DNA from: a virus
Direction: 5' to 3' (one strand)
Virus record (IMG/VR): IMGVR_UViG_3300031974_003126
Location: 1 to 21,586 of that record
DNA length: 21,586 nucleotides
Shown: positions 2,727-16,557 of the stretch, piece by piece
How the letters are laid out: each line of letters opens with the position of its first letter
How positions within the stretch are numbered: the stretch's first letter is position 1
Program-made: the position numbers and the translations under genes
The notes under the pieces: generated by a model
Database searches by the model: none
What the model saw: the letters and a program-made list of their open reading frames with translations, nothing else
What the model was told of the DNA's origin: nothing

Positions 2727-2949
2727 CTAATGCCTCTCTAATTTGTTCTATATTTGCCATAACTGATGCCCAATCTTCGTCATCTACATATGACTTTTGT
2801 GTAATCCATAATTTTACAAAATCGTCATTAGGATCTAAATCATCTAATATACCGCGGATGTTAGATTCAAAAAGACTGTAGCAACTCATCAAATCACCGT
2901 TGTCCATATGAGTCATAATTTCTCTAGAGTATTTTATAAGTTCATCCAT
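2719..2949 (-). CDS. Small acidic hypothetical protein
   Basis: A 76-residue, strongly acidic, mainly helical protein beginning MDELIKYSREIM. I prefer the ATG at 2949 to the in-frame TTG at 2958: the ATG sits 8 bases inside the epimerase stop region, and a GGAG lies about 10 bases before it. The C-terminal half (FVKLWITQKSYVDDEDWASVM) has regularly spaced aromatic and hydrophobic residues typical of a helical bundle. I see no cysteine cluster, nucleotide-binding motif or membrane segment. It may be a small phage regulatory or host-takeover protein, but nothing in the sequence demonstrates this. Confidence 0.7.
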   Translation of the reverse strand: MDELIKYSREIMTHMDNGDLMSCYSLFESNIRGILDDLDPNDDFVKLWITQKSYVDDEDWASVMANIEQIREALDA

Positions 2950-3814
2950 TTTTACCAATCTCCAATTTATATTGGTCTAAGCACATATCTTCGATACTTT
3001 TTTCTAGTGTAACTAAATCGCTTAGATTATCAACTACGCTTGCAACAGCATCGCCCGCTCTACGACCTGCTTCAACGATATTTAACTTTTTACCAGTTAC
3101 TTGCTCCATAGTACTGATTACTTCTCGTACACTGTATCCAACGTTGCTACCGAGACATTCGTAGTCCGTATTAGCGGGACCACGCTCGACTCCGTTGACA
3201 ATGGCACTAGCCAAATCAACAACATGAATATAATCACGAATACAAGTACCATCCCTAGTATCATAGTCCGTACCAAAGATCTTAATGTTGGGTAATTTCT
3301 CAGCAGCCACCATAGCAGCAACACGAATAAGATGGGTAGGAACGCCCAATTGACGATTATGCCCGTCAGTACCAGATACGTTAAAAAATCTAAAGATAGT
3401 GTATCCATTGGCTTTCTCCTTGATTACATCTTCTGCTGCCACTTTGCTACGTGCATATGGTGATGCCATTTCCCAAGCACTACTTGTACTAGCAAATAGT
3501 ACATGTGGGGTTTCTACACGATCCAACAAGTTAGCAGTACCCATAACATTTACACGATAGTACTCTGTTGGTTCACGTAAACTGTCAGGTACTACACTGC
3601 GTCCTGCTAAATGTACAGCAGCATCGTATATATCAAAAGGTACATGATTACCTGTTATGTCTACTTTGTCGTAATAGTCACAGTATGCAAGCACATCGTT
3701 TGTTTCGCTGTGGATTTCTGTATCCCAACCGAAAACTGTATGTCCGTGCTCTTTTAATAGTTTACAAACATGACTACCAATGTAACCGCTTGCACCTGTA
3801 ACTAATACTTTCAT
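2942..3814 (-). CDS. NAD-dependent sugar epimerase (GalE-like)
   Basis: An extended short-chain dehydrogenase of the nucleotide-sugar epimerase family, 290 residues. The NAD-binding Rossmann motif GASGYIG lies at residues 7-13, the Ser/Thr cluster of the active site at 109-112, and the YxxxK pair is Tyr120/Lys124 (SPYARSK). Downstream are a DGTCIRDYIHVVDLA segment and a GYSVREVI segment, both typical of UDP-glucose 4-epimerases. It is about 40-50 residues shorter than bacterial GalE, mostly in loops, as is common in phage versions. It probably interconverts UDP-hexoses (C4 epimerisation) for the glycosyltransferases in this window; the exact sugar cannot be read from sequence. The ATG at 3814 forms an ATGA overlap with the AhpD-like gene stop. 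Confidence 0.88.
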   Translation of the reverse strand: MKVLVTGASGYIGSHVCKLLKEHGHTVFGWDTEIHSETNDVLAYCDYYDKVDITGNHVPFDIYDAAVHLAGRSVVPDSLREPTEYYRVNVMGTANLLDRVETPHVLFASTSSAWEMASPYARSKVAAEDVIKEKANGYTIFRFFNVSGTDGHNRQLGVPTHLIRVAAMVAAEKLPNIKIFGTDYDTRDGTCIRDYIHVVDLASAIVNGVERGPANTDYECLGSNVGYSVREVISTMEQVTGKKLNIVEAGRRAGDAVASVVDNLSDLVTLEKSIEDMCLDQYKLEIGKNG

Positions 3815-4210: not shown

Positions 4211-4810
4211 TTATTGCTCTCTTAGTTTTCCTGATAATGCTTTTAATAGCAATCCGTATGCTGGTAGGAAGATAATCAATCCTACTGCAATCTTTAGTAC
4301 AGTTTGCGATCCTGCAATTTCCATCCAGTTTGCTGCCATATATTCATCTGCGCTATTATGGAATGCAACTGCAAAGAATGTATAACTATCAATTACGTTT
4401 GCAACAATAGTTGACAATGCCGGTGCTAACCACCATGCACGATACTTTTCACGCAAGTATTGGAATACATATACGTCTAGCATTGTACCAACTGCATATG
4501 CTGTAGCACTTGCAAAGCCGATACGTAGTGCAACACTCTGCGGTGCACCTTCTAGCAATACTACTGCAATACTACCAATAATAGCAAGCGGATAGGCTGC
4601 TGCGATAGTTGCTCGTGCAATGTTCTTACCTAGCATACGCACTGTAAGATCTGTTGCAAGAACAACAATAGGGAATGTAAATGCAGCCCAGGTTAGTTTT
4701 ACTCCAAAAAATTCAACTGGAATACTAACCAAAGCATTACTTACTATGACGACAACAACATGCAATAAGGCAAGTTTAATCATCATACTTTTATCAATAT
4801 CTTTAAACAA
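4211..4810 (-). CDS. yhhQ: YhhQ-type queuosine precursor (preQ0/preQ1) transporter, TTG start
   Basis: A 199-residue polytopic membrane protein of the YhhQ/DUF165 (queuosine precursor transporter) family, with about six hydrophobic segments. Family landmarks are a strand-to-helix stretch PIVVLATDLTVRMLGKN (47-63), LDVYVFQYLREKY (111-123), and NVIDSYTFFAVAF (138-150), which matches the conserved Asp/aromatic segment near the pore. E. coli YhhQ imports preQ0 and preQ1 across the inner membrane. The start is TTG at 4810: a strong AAGGAG lies 6 bases before it, while the first in-frame ATG (4786) has no ribosome-binding site. With a DpdA-like transglycosylase and a QueD-like gene nearby, it probably feeds 7-deazaguanine base to DNA modification. 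A role in host tRNA queuosine salvage is the alternative. Confidence 0.88.
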   Translation of the reverse strand: MFKDIDKSMMIKLALLHVVVVIVSNALVSIPVEFFGVKLTWAAFTFPIVVLATDLTVRMLGKNIARATIAAAYPLAIIGSIAVVLLEGAPQSVALRIGFASATAYAVGTMLDVYVFQYLREKYRAWWLAPALSTIVANVIDSYTFFAVAFHNSADEYMAANWMEIAGSQTVLKIAVGLIIFLPAYGLLLKALSGKLREQ

Positions 4811-4816
4811 TTATTT

Positions 4817-4822
4817 CTCCTT
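4817..4822 (-). promoter_or_regulatory. Strong Shine-Dalgarno deciding a TTG start
   Basis: AAGGAG on the minus strand, 6 bases before the TTG at 4810, in the 18-base gap after the glycosyltransferase. No comparable site precedes the later ATG at 4786, so translation of the transporter should begin at TTG. Confidence 0.7.
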
Positions 4823-4828
4823 CTTGTT

Positions 4829-6004
4829 TTAATACTTTGCAACCGCTACTTGATCTCTGTAACGATTGCTATCACGGCGCCACTGCTCACCATTACCTTG
4901 CATTATGTCAATGTAACGATCAATAGTTGCACTGGTCCAATCAGAAATTTTGCCTAAGTCTTTGTGTGGTGCGTTTAGCAAAGGTGTCAATTTATTCATT
5001 GCATCTTCTATACTCCACGGAACATACATACGTGTATGATCATTGGCAAAAATTTCTGGAAAACTGCGATAAGCAGGGAATAACACATTGCATCCTAGTG
5101 CGTCTGCTTCACTCACAGTATTACTTGTCCAATCCTGCAATGCACAATTAAACAATACTTTACTATTATTTACAATATCGTAGTAATTATTCTTTTGCAA
5201 GTTTTCATAAATTGTAAGTAATCCAAGTTCTTCCATCTTACGAGCACGTTCGATGTATTGTGGATTATTACTACGCAAAGGTCCGCCCTGGAGTATACAA
5301 AACTCTACATCTGCTGTACCAGGTGTTCCATACCATTCTTCAATCATATCCATGTAAAAGTCTGGTTGTTTTTCTTGATCAAAACGTGCTGCAAACACTA
5401 CACGATTGTCACGCTTTTCCCAATTGTTTATTTCTCCAACACGTAAAGCAACTTCTGTTTTATCAAATGCAAGTCCGCTGATGTTGTAGATAGGCGCTTT
5501 CCAGTTTGCAATCTTCATGTTAGCAACCATTTCTTCATTACTTGCTAGTACGCCAGTAACAAACTCGTTGCACATTTCTTCATACAAACTCATCCACTTG
5601 CCCATACCCCAAACATGCACAAAGTCATCTGGGTCAACTGCTTGTGCTAAACAACGAATCCAAACTTGCGGCTGTTGTTCTGCTGGAATCTGATCCATAA
5701 TGTAAGGCAACGACTCCATACCAGGTTGAAACATATCTTCAAAGAAGATAACGTCTTCGCCTGTTACTTCACCGTTGCGCATCATTTGCACCAAGTTCAT
5801 CATTTGCGACATCGCAAAGTAGGAACGGCCATGTGCATCTAGCACTTGACCTACTTGAATTGCTTTTGTGTTATCAATAGTTGTACCTGGAACAATTGTG
5901 TAATCAATACCACGTGTCTTGAATACACGTTCACTCCAGTCTTGCAACTGAAGTGTGTAACGTCCTTCGTAAGGCTCCAAGCCCATGTAAAATAGTTTAC
6001 GCAT
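4829..6004 (-). CDS. GT-B fold glycosyltransferase (GT4-like)
   Basis: A 391-residue protein. The C-terminal half has a classical GT-B donor-binding layout: RVVFAARFDQEKQPDFYMD (201-219, the strand-loop-helix start of the donor domain), a middle strand AL.IYENL, then VSEADALGCNVLFPAYRSFPEI (297-318), whose Glu-Ala-x-x-x-Gly resembles the E/G element that binds the nucleotide sugar in GT4 enzymes. The N-terminal half (MRKLFYMGLEPYEGRYTLQL) would bind the acceptor. It starts on a TAATG junction with the 68-residue gene and precedes the YhhQ-like transporter by 18 bases. Acceptor unknown: its place inside the 7-deazaguanine cluster makes DNA a possible target, while virion or cell-surface glycan is the alternative. 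No signal peptide or membrane anchor is visible, so it acts in the cytoplasm. Confidence 0.78.
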   Translation of the reverse strand: MRKLFYMGLEPYEGRYTLQLQDWSERVFKTRGIDYTIVPGTTIDNTKAIQVGQVLDAHGRSYFAMSQMMNLVQMMRNGEVTGEDVIFFEDMFQPGMESLPYIMDQIPAEQQPQVWIRCLAQAVDPDDFVHVWGMGKWMSLYEEMCNEFVTGVLASNEEMVANMKIANWKAPIYNISGLAFDKTEVALRVGEINNWEKRDNRVVFAARFDQEKQPDFYMDMIEEWYGTPGTADVEFCILQGGPLRSNNPQYIERARKMEELGLLTIYENLQKNNYYDIVNNSKVLFNCALQDWTSNTVSEADALGCNVLFPAYRSFPEIFANDHTRMYVPWSIEDAMNKLTPLLNAPHKDLGKISDWTSATIDRYIDIMQGNGEQWRRDSNRYRDQVAVAKY

Positions 6005-6210
6005 TATCTACGTCCTTTAAAACGTTGTTTGTTACGTTGCCAATTCCGCCATTTTTTGTATGCATTCCAAGTCCACGATTTATCGTTGTACATATTGGCT
6101 TCATTAAATGGAATTGGATTGCCAAAACGATCCAATTCTGTTGTACAATATTCTTTGAAATCTTCAAGATCGTTGAACACTTTATTTACTACCGGATTTT
6201 TGATAGTCAT
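6004..6210 (-). CDS. Small basic conserved phage protein
   Basis: A 68-residue protein with an acidic helical N-terminal half (KVFNDLEDFKEYCTTE), a central 'FNEANMYNDKSW' segment, and a strongly basic C-terminus (KKWRNWQRNKQRFKGRR). Short proteins with the 'DLE.F.DYC...FNEA.LYN' pattern recur in T4-like marine phages, but I know no function. The basic tail suggests nucleic-acid contact. ATG at 6210; the stop shares a TAATG junction with the downstream glycosyltransferase. Confidence 0.7.
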   Translation of the reverse strand: MTIKNPVVNKVFNDLEDFKEYCTTELDRFGNPIPFNEANMYNDKSWTWNAYKKWRNWQRNKQRFKGRR

Positions 6211-6229
6211 TTACCTTATTCCTTCTTAA

Positions 6230-6685
6230 TTATGGGTAAACAATTTGACAGCCGTTTTCGCCATCTTCGGCGACATCAATAACAACAAACCGGCCGGGAT
6301 ATTTGTCGTTAATCTGTAAGTACAAATCATCTGCGATCATTTCGCATGACTTGTAATCTAATTGTAGTACATCATCTTTGTACAAGTTTTCCAACCAACG
6401 TTTGAATTGAATAAATTCAATATCTCTGTCATTGTGTGTTACTTGAATTTGTACTTTAAAGTGAAATGTATGACGATGCGGATATCCTAAGAAACTTACA
6501 TCGTATTCATCACCTGTTGCCAACGCAGGATCGTCAAGTGCTGCTGGATATTTGTGAATACCTTCTTTAGTAAAGGTTACCCAGATACTTCGTTTTGCGT
6601 TGTCTAATCTATGTGTAATACTCAATTTAGCGTCCTCTTCTCTCATGCGCCTTTGCATATATGTATAATAACGTTCTTGTGACAT
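6230..6685 (-). CDS. QueD-like (6-carboxytetrahydropterin synthase fold) protein
   Basis: About 151 residues from the ATG at 6685. The order of elements fits the 6-pyruvoyl-tetrahydropterin/6-carboxytetrahydropterin synthase fold: ITHRLDNAKR (His25), PHRHTFHFKVQI (His70, His72) in place of the zinc-binding HGHxY, DRDIEFIQFKRWL (87-98) in place of vDFxxlK, SCEMIADDLYLQI in place of pTxEnlA, and a final VAEDGENGCQIVY strand. QueD makes 6-carboxytetrahydropterin on the way to preQ0. The usual catalytic Cys just before HGH is not seen, so activity may differ. A TTG at 6697 is possible but poorly supported. A promoter at 6665-6693 would instead make the in-frame ATG at 6646 (MREEDAKLSI) the first start on its transcript, and the protein from there still contains all the landmarks. 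Confidence 0.6.
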   Translation of the reverse strand: MSQERYYTYMQRRMREEDAKLSITHRLDNAKRSIWVTFTKEGIHKYPAALDDPALATGDEYDVSFLGYPHRHTFHFKVQIQVTHNDRDIEFIQFKRWLENLYKDDVLQLDYKSCEMIADDLYLQINDKYPGRFVVIDVAEDGENGCQIVYP

Positions 6686-6693
6686 ATTGTCAA
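6665..6693 (-). promoter_or_regulatory. Sigma70-type promoter before or within the QueD-like gene start
   Basis: On the minus strand a perfect TTGACA (6688-6693) is followed after 17 bases by TATTAT (6665-6670, five of six matches to TATAAT). The start of transcription would be near 6658, about 12 bases before the in-frame ATG at 6646. This copies the spacing seen in front of the clamp and polymerase genes. Two alternative starts for the QueD-like protein (6685 from read-through, 6646 from this promoter) follow from it. Confidence 0.55.
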
Positions 6694-7214
6694 GCAATTA
6701 CTTCATCTGTGGTGTATTTAGACCAATCTGTAAAAACAGCCTTCTCTTTTAAATCATGCAGTCTATGAACCCATACGCCTGGGTTACTTGCATCAAAATC
6801 TTTGTCATCTACTTTTAGACAAGCATTGTATCCAAGTTGATCAATATATGGCAATCTAACACTGATCATCGGAATAAAGCGATTGTATTCAGTAAATCCA
6901 CTTTCTAGCAATCCTTCAATCTGCGAAACATCGATATCCAATGTTACCCAATATCCTTCTTTCAACAATGGAAATACCATGGATTCCCAAGGTTCCCATT
7001 GACTTGCAGTGTTGCTAGTAACATTGAAACTCATGTTTGCACCACAGTAAATATGCTTACATCCATATTCGTCTGCAATACTCATAATTTCATCAACATT
7101 TTTTACACCTACAACAAACAGCGTTTTCTTTCCATACTGTGGTGTATGTTCTACTTCAGTACCTATAAACATAGATACATCGTCTTTTGTTCCTTGGTCA
7201 TAAATTCGTTTCAT
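6690..7214 (-). CDS. Conserved phage protein of unknown function, TIM-barrel-like, paired with QueD-like gene
   Basis: A 174-residue protein with alternating hydrophobic strands and helices: KTLFVVGV, then EIMSIADEYGCKHIYCGANMSF, then PLLKEGYWVTLDID, then RFIPMISVRLPYI, then ACLKVDD. This looks like a partial (beta/alpha) barrel. It ends just before the QueD-like gene (4 bases before its ATG) and starts on an ATGA overlap with a 57-residue gene, so it lies in the 7-deazaguanine cluster between DpdA and QueD. The missing pathway step there would be QueE, a radical SAM enzyme of similar fold and size. However, this protein lacks any radical SAM cysteine cluster (only three scattered Cys), so it is not a normal QueE. 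I assign no function. Confidence 0.65.
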   Translation of the reverse strand: MKRIYDQGTKDDVSMFIGTEVEHTPQYGKKTLFVVGVKNVDEIMSIADEYGCKHIYCGANMSFNVTSNTASQWEPWESMVFPLLKEGYWVTLDIDVSQIEGLLESGFTEYNRFIPMISVRLPYIDQLGYNACLKVDDKDFDASNPGVWVHRLHDLKEKAVFTDWSKYTTDEVIA

Positions 7215-7384
7215 AAGTTTTTCACTTTATATTGTTCGTTCCATAAGTCCCAACGTTTTTTATAATATTCGTTGATTTGTTCTTTAGGATAGCACTTTTC
7301 TTCCATTGTGTCAATGATTTTATTAACCTCTTCGAGTGCCATTTCTAAATTTTCTAAACGTGCTTTCTTTTCAGTGATATCCAT
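7211..7384 (-). CDS. Small coiled-coil protein (57 aa)
   Basis: Reading from the ATG at 7384 gives 57 codons to a TGA at 7211-7213. The protein begins MDITEKKARLENLEMALEEV and ends in a basic, aromatic tail (YYKKRWDLWNEQYKVKNL). The first 30 residues have heptad-like leucine/isoleucine spacing and charged flanks, as in a coiled coil. Both junctions support it: it overlaps the end of the previous small gene by 14 bases and forms an ATGA overlap with the next gene, filling what would otherwise be a 156-base gap. No function recognised. With its similar-sized helical neighbour it could form a small hetero-complex, which is speculation. Confidence 0.7.
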   Translation of the reverse strand: MDITEKKARLENLEMALEEVNKIIDTMEEKCYPKEQINEYYKKRWDLWNEQYKVKNL

Positions 7385-7589
7385 TGATACTAGTTTCCCC
7401 TAGTGATATTAGTTGTCTTTCTATTCTGTATATTTCATCTTTAATCCAAAGTTTTTTTGTTTTCATTTTTCGGAGTTCTGCACTTATATGATGAGTAGAA
7501 AGCATATCAATTTCTTCGTCTAACTTTTTATGTTTTTTTCTTAATTCATCTAAATGTGCTTTAAGTTTTTCTATATTGGTATCTGACAT
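7371..7589 (-). CDS. Small helical protein resembling YdcH/DUF465
   Basis: A 72-residue charged helical protein: paired helices IEKLKAHLDELRKKHKKLDEEI and ELRKMKTKKLWIKDEIYRIERQL joined by STHHIS. The 'L...H..LD..I..L.........L..LK..KL.LKDEI' pattern is that of YdcH-like (DUF465) proteins, short two-helix proteins of unknown function common in proteobacteria and their phages. It begins at 7589 on a TAATG junction with the DpdA-like gene and has the clearest ribosome-binding site of the window (GAGGAGGT, 5-6 bases before ATG), so it is probably made in quantity. Role unknown. Confidence 0.72.
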   Translation of the reverse strand: MSDTNIEKLKAHLDELRKKHKKLDEEIDMLSTHHISAELRKMKTKKLWIKDEIYRIERQLISLGETSINGYH

Positions 7590-9046
7590 TATACCTCCTC
7601 AAATAGTTCTCCAAACTTTGTGCTGGCGTTTACTGTCTTTTTACCAACATTAAGTCTTGTTCCAATAACTTGCATCCAGAACTTTGAATATTTAGTAATT
7701 AGATCTAAACTTTTTTGTCTATCATTAAGACTAAAAATTTCATCAACTACTTGTTTAAATTCGATGCGTTCAAAACGTTCGTCAATCAACATATACGGAA
7801 ACTCTCCTGTGTCATAACGTTCGTTTGCACGTTGCGTACTTTCAATGTGCATCCATACATTGTGACCCATTTGCAGTGCATAACTGAATGAGTCCCACGA
7901 TGTTCTACCTTCTTTACCAATCTTGTTCAAATCGCCTGGTTTATAATAACATATATCGCTAACTTTACATTCTTTACTGATTGGGGAATCTTCAAATGCT
8001 TTTAGTATGCCATCTGCTTCTAGTGTATCTTTAAACATACGTGAATCAGTTGCATATTTCTTATCATCAGCACCTGGAGACATCATGTAACTCCATTTGC
8101 CACGATCTTCAATACGTATAGTATGATACACTTGTCCATTTGCTGTTGCTAAAAAAGGGCTTGCACAGTCATATGTAATCATAAAGTTTTTGTTGTGATA
8201 CTTGCGTACTGCACGTTGGATATCTGTAAGCAACACAGCCCATTCTAATTTACTTGTGCCTAAGAAATGCATAACATCATGCACACCTTCTTCAAGTAAA
8301 CCGTCATGTATTTGATGCACAAGTCTACGCAATATTAAGTCAACATCACACATGTTCTGACCACCCATTGCCCAGCCATTAAAGTGTGTGTCTGGATACT
8401 TTGCAGGATCACAATAGTCTTTGAATTCTTCATACCAACTGTCTGCATCAGCATGATTACTGCCTTGCAATACGTTTAGCACTTTGAAGTTGCCACGTCT
8501 ATTAGCCATGTAATACTTTGCATTGATGTGTGTTGCATCTACAGCATCTTGATAACTGTGAATGTTTGCTGCTTTTGCTGCTTTAGGATCTTGGAATGTC
8601 CAAGTTGGAATATCCAACATCATTCCGTAGTCCATATACTCTTCCATCCAGTTTACAACCAGTTCACGTTTCTTTGCTGCCTTTGGACAATTAGGATCTG
8701 TCCAATCACCTTCCCACAAACCTTTTGCAATCTGGAATCCACCACTATCACCTAGCAACCATGAATTATCTCTATCTCGGTTGCGTAGCATATCTTCTTT
8801 TTCTACGTGTTTGTTTACATCTAAATCAGCATGTCCTGCAGAATAGAGCGCCCACTTGTAGTGAAACGCTCCTTCTTTAGTATTTAAAAAGTTAAGACCT
8901 TCTACGCCATTTAATCCAGGTGGAACACGATTGTAATCAACGTATTCTCCAAAACGTTGTTTGCCTACAAACGTAGCATAAAAGCCACTAATACTAGGCA
9001 AAAATACAGCATAATCTTTTTGTGTTTCAGTAAGATTAGTCTTCAT
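7589..9046 (-). CDS. dpdA: DpdA-type DNA guanine transglycosylase (TGT family)
   Basis: A 485-residue member of the tRNA-guanine transglycosylase superfamily. Visible landmarks are DSGGFQ (100-105, base-recognition and general-acid Asp), MMLDIPTW (Asp145 in the region of the TGT 'DECTP' motif), VLNVLQG (189-195, matching TGT 'iVQGG'), GWAMGG (224-229, matching 'GFAIGG'), and YDCASP (292-297), where Asp293 matches the nucleophile in TGT 'FDCV.PTR'. The TGT zinc site (CxCxxC) is not evident and the length exceeds bacterial TGT (about 370-380), both of which fit DpdA, which swaps guanine in DNA for a 7-deazaguanine such as preQ0. It follows the clamp gene on a TAATG junction without its own ribosome-binding site, so it is translationally coupled. 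With YhhQ-like and QueD-like proteins nearby the assignment is strong; archaeal-type TGT is the less likely alternative. Confidence 0.87.
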   Translation of the reverse strand: MKTNLTETQKDYAVFLPSISGFYATFVGKQRFGEYVDYNRVPPGLNGVEGLNFLNTKEGAFHYKWALYSAGHADLDVNKHVEKEDMLRNRDRDNSWLLGDSGGFQIAKGLWEGDWTDPNCPKAAKKRELVVNWMEEYMDYGMMLDIPTWTFQDPKAAKAANIHSYQDAVDATHINAKYYMANRRGNFKVLNVLQGSNHADADSWYEEFKDYCDPAKYPDTHFNGWAMGGQNMCDVDLILRRLVHQIHDGLLEEGVHDVMHFLGTSKLEWAVLLTDIQRAVRKYHNKNFMITYDCASPFLATANGQVYHTIRIEDRGKWSYMMSPGADDKKYATDSRMFKDTLEADGILKAFEDSPISKECKVSDICYYKPGDLNKIGKEGRTSWDSFSYALQMGHNVWMHIESTQRANERYDTGEFPYMLIDERFERIEFKQVVDEIFSLNDRQKSLDLITKYSKFWMQVIGTRLNVGKKTVNASTKFGELFEEV

Positions 9047-9793: not shown

Positions 9794-9822
9794 ATAATAC
9801 TGCCTTTATTTGTCTTTGTCAA
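9794..9822 (-). promoter_or_regulatory. Sigma70-type promoter for the sliding clamp
   Basis: A perfect TTGACA at 9817-9822, a 17-base spacer, and TATTAT at 9794-9799 (five of six) on the minus strand. Predicted start near 9787, 13 bases before the ATG at 9774, leaving just room for the GGAG at 9781-9784. It overlaps the 3' end of the UDP-glucose dehydrogenase-like gene (stop 9806). Likely read by host RNA polymerase with its housekeeping sigma factor, giving early expression of clamp and DpdA. Confidence 0.75.
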
Positions 9823-10567
9823 GTTTTAATTTTGTGTTGTAGTACACTGCTGCACTTAGTGTATTTAGATTTATTTTCTTTTCTGCTGCCATTTTTAATA
9901 GCGCACTAGTATCCTTTGGAAAGCAAAAACCTCCCCAGCCTCTTATACCATCTTCAGGATACACCAAAGTATGGCTATTTGTAATACGATTATCTGCACC
10001 TACGCCGGCTCTAACATTATCAAAGTTGATGTCGTATGCATTACAGAAATCGTATATTTCATTAAAGAAACTAACTTTTGTAGCAAGGAATGCATTACGG
10101 AAATATTTGATTGCAATTGCTTCTTCTGGTTGTACAATAGTTAATTTCATTTTAGGCCAATTATAACTTACTTGATCACGCCAATAATCTGTATCGCCAC
10201 TTAGTATAATATGATCTAATTCTTTAATATCATTCATAAAGTTTGCTGCTCGCAAAAATTCTGGGCTAAAACATAGTCTATGTTCTGGAAAGCGTTCTTT
10301 TAGTTCCTGCCAACCTTGCAAACTTATTGTACTTTTGATTAATATTGGTGTTGTATTACTGCATTTAGAAACAACATCAAACACTGCACTCATATCACAA
10401 GTACCGTCATCGGCTTGCGGTGTTGCTACACATATAATAACTGCACTTGTATTGTCAAAGTCTGCATTATATCCTTTTGCAGGATCGTGTATTATAATTT
10501 CTCTTCTATGATTCTTGAATAATAATTCATGTGCTTTTCCTACAAAGCCATACCCTGCTATAATCAT
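9806..10567 (-). CDS. UDP-glucose/GDP-mannose 6-dehydrogenase-like protein, short form
   Basis: A 253-residue member of the nucleotide-sugar dehydrogenase family. The N-terminal NAD-binding motif is GYGFVG (5-10); next come VICVATPQADDGTCD (43-57), KSTISLQGW (78-86), CFSPEFLRAANF (99-110), and the active-site cysteine motif GGFCFPKDT (212-220, Cys215). The catalytic cysteine and lysine are therefore intact. Full-length enzymes are about 390-440 residues; this one ends after the central helix and lacks the C-terminal UDP-binding domain. It may use another nucleotide sugar or need a partner. It normally oxidises UDP-glucose to UDP-glucuronate. It is ATGA-coupled to the phosphomannomutase-like gene, so it acts in the same sugar pathway. 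Confidence 0.85.
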   Translation of the reverse strand: MIIAGYGFVGKAHELLFKNHRREIIIHDPAKGYNADFDNTSAVIICVATPQADDGTCDMSAVFDVVSKCSNTTPILIKSTISLQGWQELKERFPEHRLCFSPEFLRAANFMNDIKELDHIILSGDTDYWRDQVSYNWPKMKLTIVQPEEAIAIKYFRNAFLATKVSFFNEIYDFCNAYDINFDNVRAGVGADNRITNSHTLVYPEDGIRGWGGFCFPKDTSALLKMAAEKKINLNTLSAAVYYNTKLKLDKDK

Positions 10568-11277
10568 GCTGCTATCTTTGCCTCTTGAAAGTGTTGTAAT
10601 CTTTCCATTGTGTCACGCCAGTCTTTAACATTAAAACAACCTTTTTTGTGTAGTTTTGCTGCTAACGGCCAATCGTTGCCGCCTTGTTCTATTTTATCTC
10701 CAAAGAAATAAATTTTATCATTTTGATTAAAGTCTTCTAGTATTTGACTTTTATCACATCCTTTGCGATAGATATCAATACCTGTTTCTCCACCTACTGT
10801 TGCAGTTATATCAGGAAACTCGCTGTTAATTTGATGAGCGATAGTTTCTCGCTCTCGCATATTTTCATCATGCTTAACATATAGTTTGCGTTCTCCTATT
10901 GTACAGTTACGGCCTACAATACTAAAGTTAATTGTACCCATACGTTCTTCGATATGATTACCTGTACGTAGTGGAAAACTACTACCCTGTAGCCAACCTT
11001 GCATTAAATCGTATAGTTCTTTTGGTGCTTCGAATGACTTTGCATTTACACGTTTGCCCTTAAGGTATACATCATTGCCTGAACAGTTATAAACAGTAAC
11101 AACTGATTCGCAGATTTCTTTGCCAAGTTGCTCTACAGTTTTAGCATAGTCACTACCAGTTACTAGCCATACTTTGTTGTCTTTTATAAATTGTAAGAAA
11201 AACTCTTTAAACGTAGGATCAATGACTTGTCTACTAGGAGTAAGTGTTCCGTCAACATCAAAAATAAATTTATTCAT
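10564..11277 (-). CDS. HAD-superfamily phosphomannomutase-like protein (eukaryotic PMM type)
   Basis: A 237-residue HAD hydrolase. The N-terminal motif FDVDGTLTPSRQ (6-17, nucleophile Asp7 and acid/base Asp9) closely resembles eukaryotic-type phosphomannomutase; motif II is LVTGSD (38-43), and the C-terminal motif is IYFFGDKIEQGGNDWPLA, which matches the PMM 'FFGDKT.PGGND.EI' metal-binding loop. The size equals that of PMM (about 245). The probable reaction is mannose-6-phosphate/mannose-1-phosphate interconversion or a related sugar phosphate step. It lies between a cytidylyltransferase gene and a UDP-glucose dehydrogenase-like gene and overlaps both neighbours, so a nucleotide-sugar pathway is likely. 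A simple sugar phosphatase is the alternative. Confidence 0.8.
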   Translation of the reverse strand: MNKFIFDVDGTLTPSRQVIDPTFKEFFLQFIKDNKVWLVTGSDYAKTVEQLGKEICESVVTVYNCSGNDVYLKGKRVNAKSFEAPKELYDLMQGWLQGSSFPLRTGNHIEERMGTINFSIVGRNCTIGERKLYVKHDENMRERETIAHQINSEFPDITATVGGETGIDIYRKGCDKSQILEDFNQNDKIYFFGDKIEQGGNDWPLAAKLHKKGCFNVKDWRDTMERLQHFQEAKIAA

Positions 11278-11428
11278 GTACGCATACTACCTTTTCGTCT
11301 TCTGTAAATGTTTTTTCCAACACTGCTTTATTAATTTCACATTGCTGGCTAGTGATATAACTGTTAAACTTTGTAACTTTGTACTCGTCAAAGTCTGCAA
11401 CAAAACTAATAATAAAAAGTGTCCACAT
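11270..11428 (-). CDS. Small hypothetical protein with hydrophobic N-terminus (52 aa)
   Basis: Reading from the ATG at 11428 gives 52 codons to a TAA at 11270-11272. The N-terminus MWTLFIISFVADFDEYKV is hydrophobic, followed by a hydrophilic part with two Cys (FNSYITSQQCEINK and VVCVHE). It could be a short signal-anchored or exported protein, although the hydrophobic run (about 10 residues) is short. The junctions support it: its start shares TAATG with the cytidylyltransferase stop, its end overlaps the phosphomannomutase-like start by 8 bases, and it fills an otherwise empty 150-base gap. Small proteins of this plan, with 'MWTL' starts and a late Cys, are frequent in marine myoviruses. Function unknown. 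Confidence 0.65.
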   Translation of the reverse strand: MWTLFIISFVADFDEYKVTKFNSYITSQQCEINKAVLEKTFTEDEKVVCVHE

Positions 11429-11835
11429 TATACTTCACATACCCTTCGTCTAAGATCGCTTGTGCTAAAGCGATGGTCACGTTTGTTGAAATACAGATCT
11501 ATTTCACGTTTACGGCAAATATCCTTGCCAGTAAAATCTTTGTCTCTGTATTCTTCTCCTAGTATTCTAACATCTATATGATACATTGTCAATATATCTT
11601 CTAGGTCTTTTTCGGTGCCATATGGTATAATTTCATCTACATATTTTACACCTTTGAGTTGTGTATAACGCTCTACAATGGTTTGCACAGGAGCATTCTT
11701 TTCTTCTCTATCTACACTTGGATCCATTTGCAATGCACATATTAAATAATCGCATTGTTCTTTTGCTTCACGTAACATTTGTATATGTCCTGCATGTAAC
11801 AAATCAAATGTACTACATGTAAATCCTACTTTCAT
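11428..11835 (-). CDS. Cytidylyltransferase (TagD/RfaE-C-like nucleotidyltransferase)
   Basis: A 135-residue nucleotidyltransferase. The signature is STFDLLHAGHIQML (8-21) with the HxGH pair His14/His17, and the C-terminus has FNKRDHRFSTSDLRRR (the 'STS.LR.R' motif that binds the triphosphate). Length fits glycerol-3-phosphate cytidylyltransferase (about 130). It would transfer CMP or another NMP to a sugar or polyol phosphate. Together with the neighbouring phosphomannomutase-like protein this suggests synthesis of an activated sugar or polyol; the true substrate cannot be told. The ATG at 11835 forms ATGA with the zinc-protein stop. Confidence 0.85.
   Translation of the reverse strand: MKVGFTCSTFDLLHAGHIQMLREAKEQCDYLICALQMDPSVDREEKNAPVQTIVERYTQLKGVKYVDEIIPYGTEKDLEDILTMYHIDVRILGEEYRDKDFTGKDICRKREIDLYFNKRDHRFSTSDLRRRVCEV
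11564..11592 (-). promoter_or_regulatory. Candidate internal sigma70-type promoter
   Basis: TTGACA (11587-11592), 17 bases, TAGAAT (11564-11569, five of six) on the minus strand, inside the cytidylyltransferase gene. It could serve the 52-residue protein and phosphomannomutase-like genes downstream, but it lies about 130 bases before the next start, unlike the close promoters of clamp and polymerase. Confidence 0.3.
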
Positions 11836-14728: not shown

Positions 14729-15712
14729 CTGTTTTGCTTGTTCTACTGCTTTGTTTATTACGGCAATTATTTTTTGTGCGTCTGGTGTAAATTCTGCTTC
14801 CATACTGATTACATCGGGTTTGTCACCATATGCAATATCATTTACAAATTTGTTGTGATTATATTCACAAACCTCTGCCATTTGTTCTGCTGCACCTTTG
14901 TAATCTTTGATTTTTTGTAACTGTTCTATTAAAACTTCTATACGCTGTTCCATTGTATTTAGGCTATCAAACTCATAATCTATTACATCATGGAACAATT
15001 TATAACCTTTGTCTTCTAGTGTGGTATTTAGATCCTTTGCGCCAACAAGTATGCTAGGCATTTTCCACAACATAGGCATCCATGTTTTTTCTGTGTGCAA
15101 CACGATTTCATCTGTGCTTTCTGGTGTAATAAGGAATAAACTACGCTTCCAAACATCCACAGGCGGTGGAGGATTTGTATCACTGTCAAACACAAAGTCT
15201 GGATCAAAGTCTTTGCTTTCTACAAATCTATCTACCTGTTTGTGCCAATCAGGAGTATTAGGTATCTTGTCCCAAATATCTTCTAATCGTTTGTAGTATA
15301 TTTCGCCATCTAAATCTGCGTTGAGCAACCTTTCTACTAGCGTGTCTTTGTGGGGCCTATATGTTAGTGTTTGCAAATGATACAACTGTTCGGGTGTATG
15401 TGGTACTTCTTTGTATTCTTGCCAGCCTAAAAACTGATCAAATTCTGGCCAAGGCTTATGAAAACTACTATCATTGTGTCTTGGATGAATAATGTTACAA
15501 TGATATATTAATCTATTGCTTGTATATAAATCGTGTAGTATCTCACGCTCTTCGTCATCACGCAATATCATATGACGTATAAATTCATATGCTACACCTT
15601 CTTCGCTCCAGCCTAATACGTGCAGTTTATCAAATTGTTTGTCTTTTAAACTTTTAATATCAATATCCAAACGTACTGTTGGTTCAAATATTGTACTTGT
15701 CACTAGATCCAT
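14702..15712 (-). CDS. Putative glycosyltransferase-like protein (YRPH/EKTW family, 336 aa)
   Basis: I choose the ATG at 15712 (MDLVTSTIFEP): a strong AAGGAG lies 5 bases before it, whereas the GTG at 15781 has no such site and lies deep inside the radical SAM gene. Landmarks shared with the 421-residue protein at 649-1914 are TYRPHKDTLVERL (117-129), FLITPEST (193-200), an acidic/His patch followed by HTEKTWMPML (206-215), PSILVGAKDL (219-228) and GYKLFHDVIDYEFD (236-249). The EKTW.P...P.ILVG core is typical of phage glycosyltransferase-like C-terminal domains. The C-terminus from about 290 is a charged helical tail. It overlaps the radical SAM gene by 10 bases. Sugar and acceptor unknown, and glycosyltransferase activity is inferred only. 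Confidence 0.65.
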   Translation of the reverse strand: MDLVTSTIFEPTVRLDIDIKSLKDKQFDKLHVLGWSEEGVAYEFIRHMILRDDEEREILHDLYTSNRLIYHCNIIHPRHNDSSFHKPWPEFDQFLGWQEYKEVPHTPEQLYHLQTLTYRPHKDTLVERLLNADLDGEIYYKRLEDIWDKIPNTPDWHKQVDRFVESKDFDPDFVFDSDTNPPPPVDVWKRSLFLITPESTDEIVLHTEKTWMPMLWKMPSILVGAKDLNTTLEDKGYKLFHDVIDYEFDSLNTMEQRIEVLIEQLQKIKDYKGAAEQMAEVCEYNHNKFVNDIAYGDKPDVISMEAEFTPDAQKIIAVINKAVEQAKQLTKGKNIV

Positions 15713-16557
15713 GCACTCTCCTTCTTTGTAGCAAGTGGCGCAATACAATGTGTTTTTGCACTTTGCGGACATAATGTACACTGTGGCATAGGCTTGTGTA
15801 GTTTTTCAAAAAATTCTGTCAAGTCGTCATCTGGATGTGCCGGCTTGTACTGTTGCAATAAATCTATTGCATGATCTTCTAAAGGAAACTGTTGTATTAA
15901 ATCTGCACTTACACTAGTTAAATGACATTGATACATAAGTCCTTTGTTAAAGTGTGTACAAGGCGGTTCTCCTCCTAAACATACTTTGTGTGCTAATGTA
16001 CTGTTACTTCTATGAAACTGCCATTTATTGTTTTTAACGCCTTTTTTGGCGCTGCTTATAAAATCTGTAGTTTGGTACAATATAAAGTATGGATGATTGC
16101 TATTATGTGCTACATATCGTACCTCATCCTCAAAATTTACAATTTTATAAGGTTTTTCATTTAAAACCTCTTTTATGCTGTTTTCGATGTCTTTTGTTAA
16201 ATTAGTGTCATGTATACTTATATCAATATACCAACCTAAATCTAATAATTGTTTTGCAGTATCTATGTGATTTTTTAACAAACTACCGTTGCTGCTAACA
16301 TAGTGCTTCACAGCATCGGGCCACAAATGTTTTAATCCAGCAGCCCAGTTTAAAATATCAGGATTAGTAAAAGGTTCACCACCATGTAATGTAATTACAT
16401 TTATACTTACTATTTCACTCCAACGTTTGTATAAGTCTTTGTAATCGTCAAAACGAAAATGATTGCGAAAGTTAAAATTGTTAAAACTTTCGCAACCACT
16501 GCAAGTTAAATTACAAACATTGGTGATGTTAAACGCACCGTCAAATATACGGTACAT
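15703..16557 (-). CDS. Radical SAM enzyme with C-terminal cysteine cluster
   Basis: A 284-residue radical SAM protein. CX3CX2C is at Cys15, Cys19 and Cys22 (VCNLTCSGC) and GGEPF at 59-63, with a SSNGSLL strand further on that fits the barrel. Beyond the core there are further cysteines: two with HLTS-flanking Cys around residues 195-215 (CLGGEPPC and YQC) and a C-terminal CTLCPQSAKTHC. These resemble the auxiliary Fe-S cluster ligands of SPASM/twitch enzymes, which act on peptides and proteins. The substrate is unknown. It begins on a TAATG junction with the DsbA-like gene and overlaps the next, putative glycosyltransferase gene by 10 bases. It is too different from the 1-671 protein to be a recent duplicate. 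QueE is unlikely because the cysteine spacing and length differ. Confidence 0.87.
   Translation of the reverse strand: MYRIFDGAFNITNVCNLTCSGCESFNNFNFRNHFRFDDYKDLYKRWSEIVSINVITLHGGEPFTNPDILNWAAGLKHLWPDAVKHYVSSNGSLLKNHIDTAKQLLDLGWYIDISIHDTNLTKDIENSIKEVLNEKPYKIVNFEDEVRYVAHNSNHPYFILYQTTDFISSAKKGVKNNKWQFHRSNSTLAHKVCLGGEPPCTHFNKGLMYQCHLTSVSADLIQQFPLEDHAIDLLQQYKPAHPDDDLTEFFEKLHKPMPQCTLCPQSAKTHCIAPLATKKESAWI

Follow-up and report, generated by a model that had tools for sequence, protein, structure and literature searches.

A candidate phage 7-deazaguanine DNA-modification cluster with a divergent DpdA-type enzyme, a QueD paralogue and a linked glycosyltransferase

Introduction

What would a phage do with a transglycosylase-like protein, a QueD-like protein, a YhhQ-type transporter and a glycosyltransferase encoded side by side? 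The question is raised by virus record IMGVR_UViG_3300031974_003126 (21,586 bases; G000 in our scans), which was analysed over its whole length and is called the window here. A preliminary description of its sequence had placed these genes in a 7-deazaguanine DNA-modification cluster, and all those it named do lie on the minus strand at the positions it gave. The reading we favour, with moderate confidence, is a phage 7-deazaguanine DNA-modification cluster that is cut by the end of the contig, with a base derived from 7-carboxy-7-deazaguanine (CDG), a divergent DpdA and probable glycosylation. Within this reading, a deazaguanine system acting on DNA is very likely, with genomic context pointing to DNA as the substrate; a sugar on the base, suggested by gene linkage, has close to an even chance, if slightly below it. 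The cluster itself is of a known kind. It comes with a DpdA missed by the profile libraries used, a corrected role for the QueD-like protein and a strongly linked glycosyltransferase, whose place as a dedicated partner is new.

Throughout, 'QueD paralogue' denotes the QueD-fold family of window positions 6230-6697 (phrog_17812), 'GT' the glycosyltransferase family of 4829-6004, and 'w174' the product of 6690-7214. DpdA2, of phage nt-1, is named as in the accessible text of PMC6884629; DpdA1-type and DpdA3-type are working labels of this analysis.

Results

The protein encoded at 7589-9046 (485 residues, minus strand) had no match in Pfam, PHROG, NCBIfam or PADLOC models, and a PADLOC search returned nothing useful. 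Its fold was clear from a structural model built from 35 sequences (pLDDT 88.9, pTM 0.89). All 12 Foldseek matches in the PDB at E ≤ 0.001 were tRNA-guanine transglycosylases (TGTs), and the VIA comparison showed the TGT (β/α)8 fold, with a Z of 19.0 over 304 residues and TGTs in 50 of 50 rows among the matches listed. The protein has DSGGFQ at residues 100-105 and YDC at 292-294, as described previously, and D100 and D293, which we take to be the two catalytic aspartates, were kept in 214/214 aligned sequences. The CxCxxC zinc motif occurred in none of the 214, though it is present in GR7B, a phage TGT-domain control. The protein is thus a TGT-superfamily enzyme without the zinc motif, an absence that matches expectation for DpdA. 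The structure prediction proposed in the preliminary description therefore gave the TGT match it had anticipated, the intact tRNA-binding zinc site it had named as contrary evidence was not found, and the DpdA-type call was upheld.

The same fold is that of TGTs acting on tRNA, and both aspartates are retained, as would be expected if the enzyme modified phage or host tRNA in the manner of queuosine and archaeosine TGTs. We regard this as very improbable: in addition to the missing zinc motif, the gene lies beside that for a DNA polymerase in a conserved order, and the neighbourhood of a homologue in Vibrio phage 2.275.O resembles those of the DNA-modifying phages in the accessible text of PMC6884629. 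Within 6 kb after that homologue, 2.275.O has genes annotated as 7-cyano-7-deazaguanine reductase, vitamin-uptake transporter, queuosine biosynthesis protein and GTP cyclohydrolase I.

A match to the 485-residue protein was found in 28 named phage records, the best being in PA5oct-like Pseudomonas phages (35% identity over 84%), followed by 2.275.O (30% over 98%) and Sinorhizobium phage Phosso (27% over 94%). Comparison by hhalign with nt-1 DpdA2 and three relatives covered the catalytic motifs without reaching significance (E 0.24), so we place the window DpdA beside DpdA2 rather than within it. Sequence-profile searches of the PDB with the DpdA and QueD-paralogue alignments returned no TGT and no convincing QueD relative.

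The neighbourhood of the DpdA gene is conserved. IMG/VR held 167 stretches encoding relatives of the 485-residue protein, so the cluster is not a chance arrangement. Among the 80 loci kept from these, many of them cut by contig ends, we found w174 in 76, the QueD paralogue in 68, the GT in 67, a sugar epimerase in 53, FolE in 26 and YhhQ in 3. Typically the genes run from DNA polymerase through sugar genes, a 258-residue gene (perhaps for a sliding clamp), DpdA, two small genes, w174, QueD paralogue and GT, followed by the epimerase, accessory genes, a phosphoribosyltransferase (PRTase), FolE and QueE.

Where, then, are the synthesis genes of the window? Profile searches of the window found no FolE, QueD, QueC or PRTase, and the QueE profile gave only a 16-bit match to a generic radical-SAM gene at 3-674; a second radical-SAM gene, at 15703-16557, is not QueE either. 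The preliminary description was right that FolE, QueE and QueC are not seen here; for FolE and QueE the absence is probably no trait of the phage, since relatives carry both. Nine of the 11 large relative contigs have FolE, as do PA5oct, 2.275.O and Phosso, and the gene of about 298 residues beside it is QueE-like (phrog_2076, 1e-50). The end of the window cuts the first radical-SAM gene; in the relatives L065 and L018 its homologue precedes FolE by about 5 and 4 kb, respectively. By this spacing FolE would be expected about 4-5 kb past the window end. Because the contig stops before the place where relatives carry both genes, their absence is best read as truncation of the record.

The transporter gene, at 4211-4810 (199 residues, minus strand), was identified correctly as YhhQ-type: it matched Pfam Vut_1 (2.7e-24) and scored 112.8 bits against the 50.95-bit cut-off of TIGR00697, 'queuosine precursor transporter'. 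Its score of 193.3 bits against the stricter NF008406 was below the cut-off of 252. The preliminary description, which noted the transporter in place of FolE, QueE and QueC, had suggested partial synthesis combined with import; on such an import-based reading, a phage lacking most synthesis genes would take up preQ0 or preQ1. The TIGR00697 score and the lack of FolE, QueD, QueC and any QueE-type gene in the window would suit such a phage. However, 10 of 12 YhhQ-bearing contigs contain FolE (one as a partial match at a contig end), and the other two are fragments of 16.8 and 19.7 kb. The three relatives whose YhhQ is 95-97% identical to that of the window are L065, L075 and L052; PRTase, FolE and QueE are all present in the first two, and FolE was not found in the third, which is the 19.7-kb fragment. 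Since the window also stops short of the expected FolE position, we consider import in place of synthesis highly unlikely; import appears to add to synthesis.

YhhQ is an accessory gene, found in 3/80 loci of the DpdA scan, in 10/80 of a paralogue scan and in 18 of 265 distinct GT loci. It lies after the GT, between the QueD paralogue and the GT, or after FolE, and these varied positions suggest repeated recruitment. YhhQ has been noted in phages before, without correlation to a group in the accessible text of PMC6884629.

The synthesis genes of the group point to a particular intermediate. No QueC over the cut-off was found in any of the nine named phages with a QueD paralogue (PA5oct, Phosso, phiST, ACP17, RHph_I1_18, X1, Bakedbeans, Ahp1_CNU-2021 and BUCT-ZZ01), and QueF passed its cut-off in 1 of 28 records (2.275.O). 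Canonical QueC thus seems to be missing from the group, which suggests that the pathway ends at CDG rather than preQ0: with FolE, QueD and QueE in place, it should stop there. A QueC-like PP-loop gene was seen in two relatives, G004 and G005 (loci L090 and L091); in L090 its neighbours on either side are radical-SAM-like genes, and the deazaguanine cluster is far away.

What does the QueD-like protein contribute? The 155-residue product of 6230-6697 (minus strand) matched phrog_17812 (9.3e-35). Profile-profile comparison with QueD by hhalign gave 95.4% (E 1.7e-8) with large alignments and 59.9% with small ones, and together with three histidines this similarity gives the paralogue the features of the QueD fold (T-fold). 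His48, His74, His76, Glu119 and Glu144 were invariant in 241/241 paralogues. The position four residues before the His motif, which is Cys in 9/9 aligned phage QueDs, was Leu in all 241. In addition, a separate gene passing the PF01242 cut-off was found in each of the nine named phages with the paralogue and in 3 of 11 IMG/VR relatives. We therefore rejected a role as QueD itself (CPH4 synthase). The earlier label 'QueD-like' stands as a statement of distant relationship and fails as one of biosynthetic function: the position of the catalytic Cys holds Leu, and the nine named phages have a separate QueD.

By its conserved residues the paralogue would be an enzyme that binds metal and has kept the ability to hold a guanine- or pterin-like ring while performing other chemistry; it probably acts on CDG. 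Cui et al. reportedly proposed a CDG decarboxylase, DpdL, in 2023, and the paralogue may correspond to it, which we treat as a lead. The gene set of Cellulophaga phage phiST, in which the paralogue stands beside FolE, QueE and QueD, fits that lead. TubG was considered as a precedent for decarboxylation and dropped, as in the accessible text of PMC6112128 it is a Nudix hydrolase, the UbiD-family TubF being the proposed decarboxylase. Two long paralogue reading frames (Bakedbeans gp176 and L373) showed no fusion with DpdA or GT. In L465, from Streptomyces specialis, a QueD-paralogue remnant adjoins an apparent DpdA3-type fragment, perhaps in a prophage remnant.

The interleaved gene at 4829-6004 (391 residues, minus strand) had led the preliminary description to suspect a further decorated base. 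As a single sequence its Pfam GT match was only 0.007, below the cut-off; the family profile matched solved group-1 glycosyltransferases with E values of 2.2e-4 to 2.6e-3. R207, K212 and E299 were invariant in 8/8 sequences, and we take them to correspond to the R-x4-K and acidic-residue motif of GT-B enzymes. On these profile and residue matches, the protein is classed as a GT-B-type group-1 glycosyltransferase.

The GT gene is closely linked to the QueD paralogue. Among 50,697 phage records the window GT found 4 and the PA5oct GT 19 (20 together), and 16 of these 20 are among the 26 that have the paralogue, in five lineages (PA5oct-like, Phosso, ACP17, X1 and BUCT-ZZ01). A scan of IMG/VR with the GT alone (the best 80 of 194 relatives) found the paralogue within 8 kb in 69/80 loci, or 56/67 without duplicates. 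Conversely, two scans with the paralogue found the GT in 80/80 and 68/80 loci among the matches listed; of the 12 loci without it, five contain a DpdA3-type enzyme, and for one, L413, a GT was located in another part of the record. In the pool of all five scans, four of which had been selected through DpdA or the paralogue itself, the paralogue accompanied 254 of 265 distinct GTs and the GT accompanied 241 of 256 distinct paralogues. Less than 1 kb separated the two genes in 275 of 345 loci, counting duplicates.

The pair occurs with inserting enzymes of three types: the window type, the DpdA2 type (ACP17, X1 and BUCT-ZZ01, 27-30% identical to nt-1) and the DpdA1 type. The last is defined by one protein cluster, shared by 52 of the 58 loci that have GT and paralogue without the other types; one tested member matched phrog_887, 'queuine tRNA-ribosyltransferase' (3.1e-24), and the single-sequence profile of a DpdA1-type member matched in 42/80 loci of the GT scan. 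Because the GT accompanies the base pathway whichever of the three inserting enzymes is present, it is best read as part of that pathway and as a dedicated partner of the QueD paralogue. The suspicion of a decorated base is backed to this extent by linkage, with the sugar itself as the predicted outcome.

One distant relative of the GT, in Xanthomonas phage PhiXhv-12 (L282 and L283), lies beside genes annotated as glutamine-fructose-6-phosphate aminotransferase and N-acetylglucosaminyl-malate deacetylase, possibly an amino-sugar cassette. This phage also has a distant TGT-like gene, some 94 kb from the GT relative.

Could the DNA carry the modified base without a sugar? DpdA would then insert 7-deazaguanine or CDG itself, and the GT would decorate a virion protein, a cell-surface glycan or another base. 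All five DpdA3-type loci have the paralogue without a GT, so the base pathway can operate without one, and the window lineage has sugar genes nearby (an epimerase, a UDP-sugar dehydrogenase, a PMM-like gene and a nucleotidyltransferase) that could serve another target. However, the GT tracks the paralogue through three DpdA types and at short range, whereas the epimerase is found in only 7/80 loci of the GT scan; and ACP17, X1 and BUCT-ZZ01 have the GT and no thymidylate-synthase/hydroxymethylase-family gene, which 4 of 13 records have. We hold a sugarless modification to be appreciably possible, though well short of an even chance.

Discussion

The pathway that we propose for the favoured reading, a CDG-derived and probably glycosylated base in phage DNA, runs as follows. 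GTP would be converted to CDG by phage FolE and QueE, expected past the left end of the window as in relatives, together with a QueD of phage or host origin. As no canonical QueC was seen in the group, preQ0 is an improbable product. The QueD paralogue would modify CDG, most likely by decarboxylation, and the DpdA-type enzyme would exchange guanine in phage DNA for the resulting base. The GT-B enzyme would put a sugar on the 7-deazaguanine, either as the free base or in DNA, and YhhQ may serve as an optional aid to uptake or salvage beside synthesis.

Several observations weigh against this reading. The DpdA profile lacks significant similarity to DpdA2. Eight of 11 relative contigs, including one of 330 kb, gave no QueD match, and partial QueC-like matches over the cut-off occur in 3/11 relative contigs (22.9-24.7 bits) and 1/14 others; that in G004 belongs to a PP-loop protein whose tail is rich in cysteine and which might play a part in the pathway. 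The linkage is also incomplete. Ten of the 26 paralogue phage records have no GT at E 1e-3, and four GT records (PhiXhv-12, PhiXhv-15, PhiXhv-16 and Ep032) have no QueD paralogue; their GT is distant, their DpdA match is weak, and in the one examined the genes are far apart. Finally, decarboxylation of CDG by the paralogue would leave no obvious attachment point for a sugar, which may sit on C7 of the ring or, under other paralogue chemistry, on the carboxylate itself.

How does the cluster compare with known systems? With Vibrio phage 2.275.O it shares a homologous DpdA, YhhQ and FolE; 2.275.O differs in having QueC (172 bits) and QueF (52.8 bits), and no QueD paralogue or GT was found there. 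The phiST gene set, which would stop at CDG, likewise has FolE, QueD, QueE and the paralogue side by side and no QueC over the cut-off, and differs in its small DpdA3-type enzyme and lack of a GT match. The likeness to T-even phages lies in the last step. In these phages, α- and β-glucosyltransferases glucosylate 5-hydroxymethylcytosine in DNA; here too the GT would decorate an already modified base, which would be a 7-deazaguanine. Such a base, if real, would be a guanine-side counterpart of glucosylated 5-hydroxymethylcytosine, hypermodified in several steps. With the DpdA phages 9g and nt-1 (Hutinet 2019, accessible text of PMC6884629) the window group shares an inserting enzyme of TGT fold, FolE/QueE-type genes and, in some, YhhQ. 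It differs from them in a DpdA missed by the profile libraries used, the lack of canonical QueC, and the QueD paralogue and GT as fixed partners.

More broadly, the scans suggest, tentatively and at somewhat less than even probability, a large phage group with glycosylated 7-deazaguanine in its DNA. The base would derive from CDG by way of a QueD-fold enzyme, enter the DNA through one of at least three DpdA types and receive its sugar from a dedicated GT-B enzyme. In the accessible parts of the open-licence literature, including PMC6884629, PMC13329287, PMC12783734 and PMC6112128, we came across neither phage DNA containing a glycosylated 7-deazaguanine nor a GT acting as its partner. A sugar on 7-deazaguanine could hide phage DNA from bacterial defences. 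If the proposal is correct, the phage 7-deazaguanines known to date belong to a family with larger, sugar-bearing members, and such bases would occur in many uncultured phages as well as in phages isolated from a lake (Synechococcus phage BUCT-ZZ01, host S. elongatus PCC 7942), from soil (Phosso) and from cave sediment (X1). The analysis names a testable GT, provides a sequence handle for a DpdA type missed by the profile libraries used, and suggests that phage 'QueD-like' genes of this kind are not precursor synthases.

Neighbouring genes

The PRTase lies less than 4 kb from FolE in 57 of 113 loci with enough flank. It might salvage guanine released by DpdA or act on CDG like TubE, both of which are guesses; TubE, a CDG phosphoribosyltransferase according to the accessible text of PMC6112128, is a possible parallel.

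Between DpdA and the QueD paralogue lies w174 (6690-7214, minus strand), a conserved protein of 174 residues found in 76/80, 75/80 and 70/75 loci of three scans and in 12/80 of the GT scan. Its model was confident (pLDDT 92.7) and had no Foldseek match in the PDB at E ≤ 0.001. The best VIA Z was 6.6, and two QueE chains at 6.2 and 5.9 are too weak to use; the one BFVD match at E ≤ 0.001 was its ACP17 homologue. Directly after DpdA is a small DUF465 protein of 72 residues (7371-7589, minus strand; PF04325 at 3.2e-8, over the cut-off).

The gene at 2942-3814 (minus strand) encodes an NAD-dependent sugar epimerase of 290 residues (Pfam Epimerase, 4.3e-35). By its distribution in the DpdA and GT scans, it is a neighbour of the GT in the window lineage and not a fixed part of the cassette. 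Between the DNA polymerase and DpdA, at 9806-11835, lie genes for a UDP-sugar dehydrogenase, a PMM-like HAD protein and a cytidylyltransferase-like protein, which by their annotations would form a nucleotide-sugar route of the window lineage.

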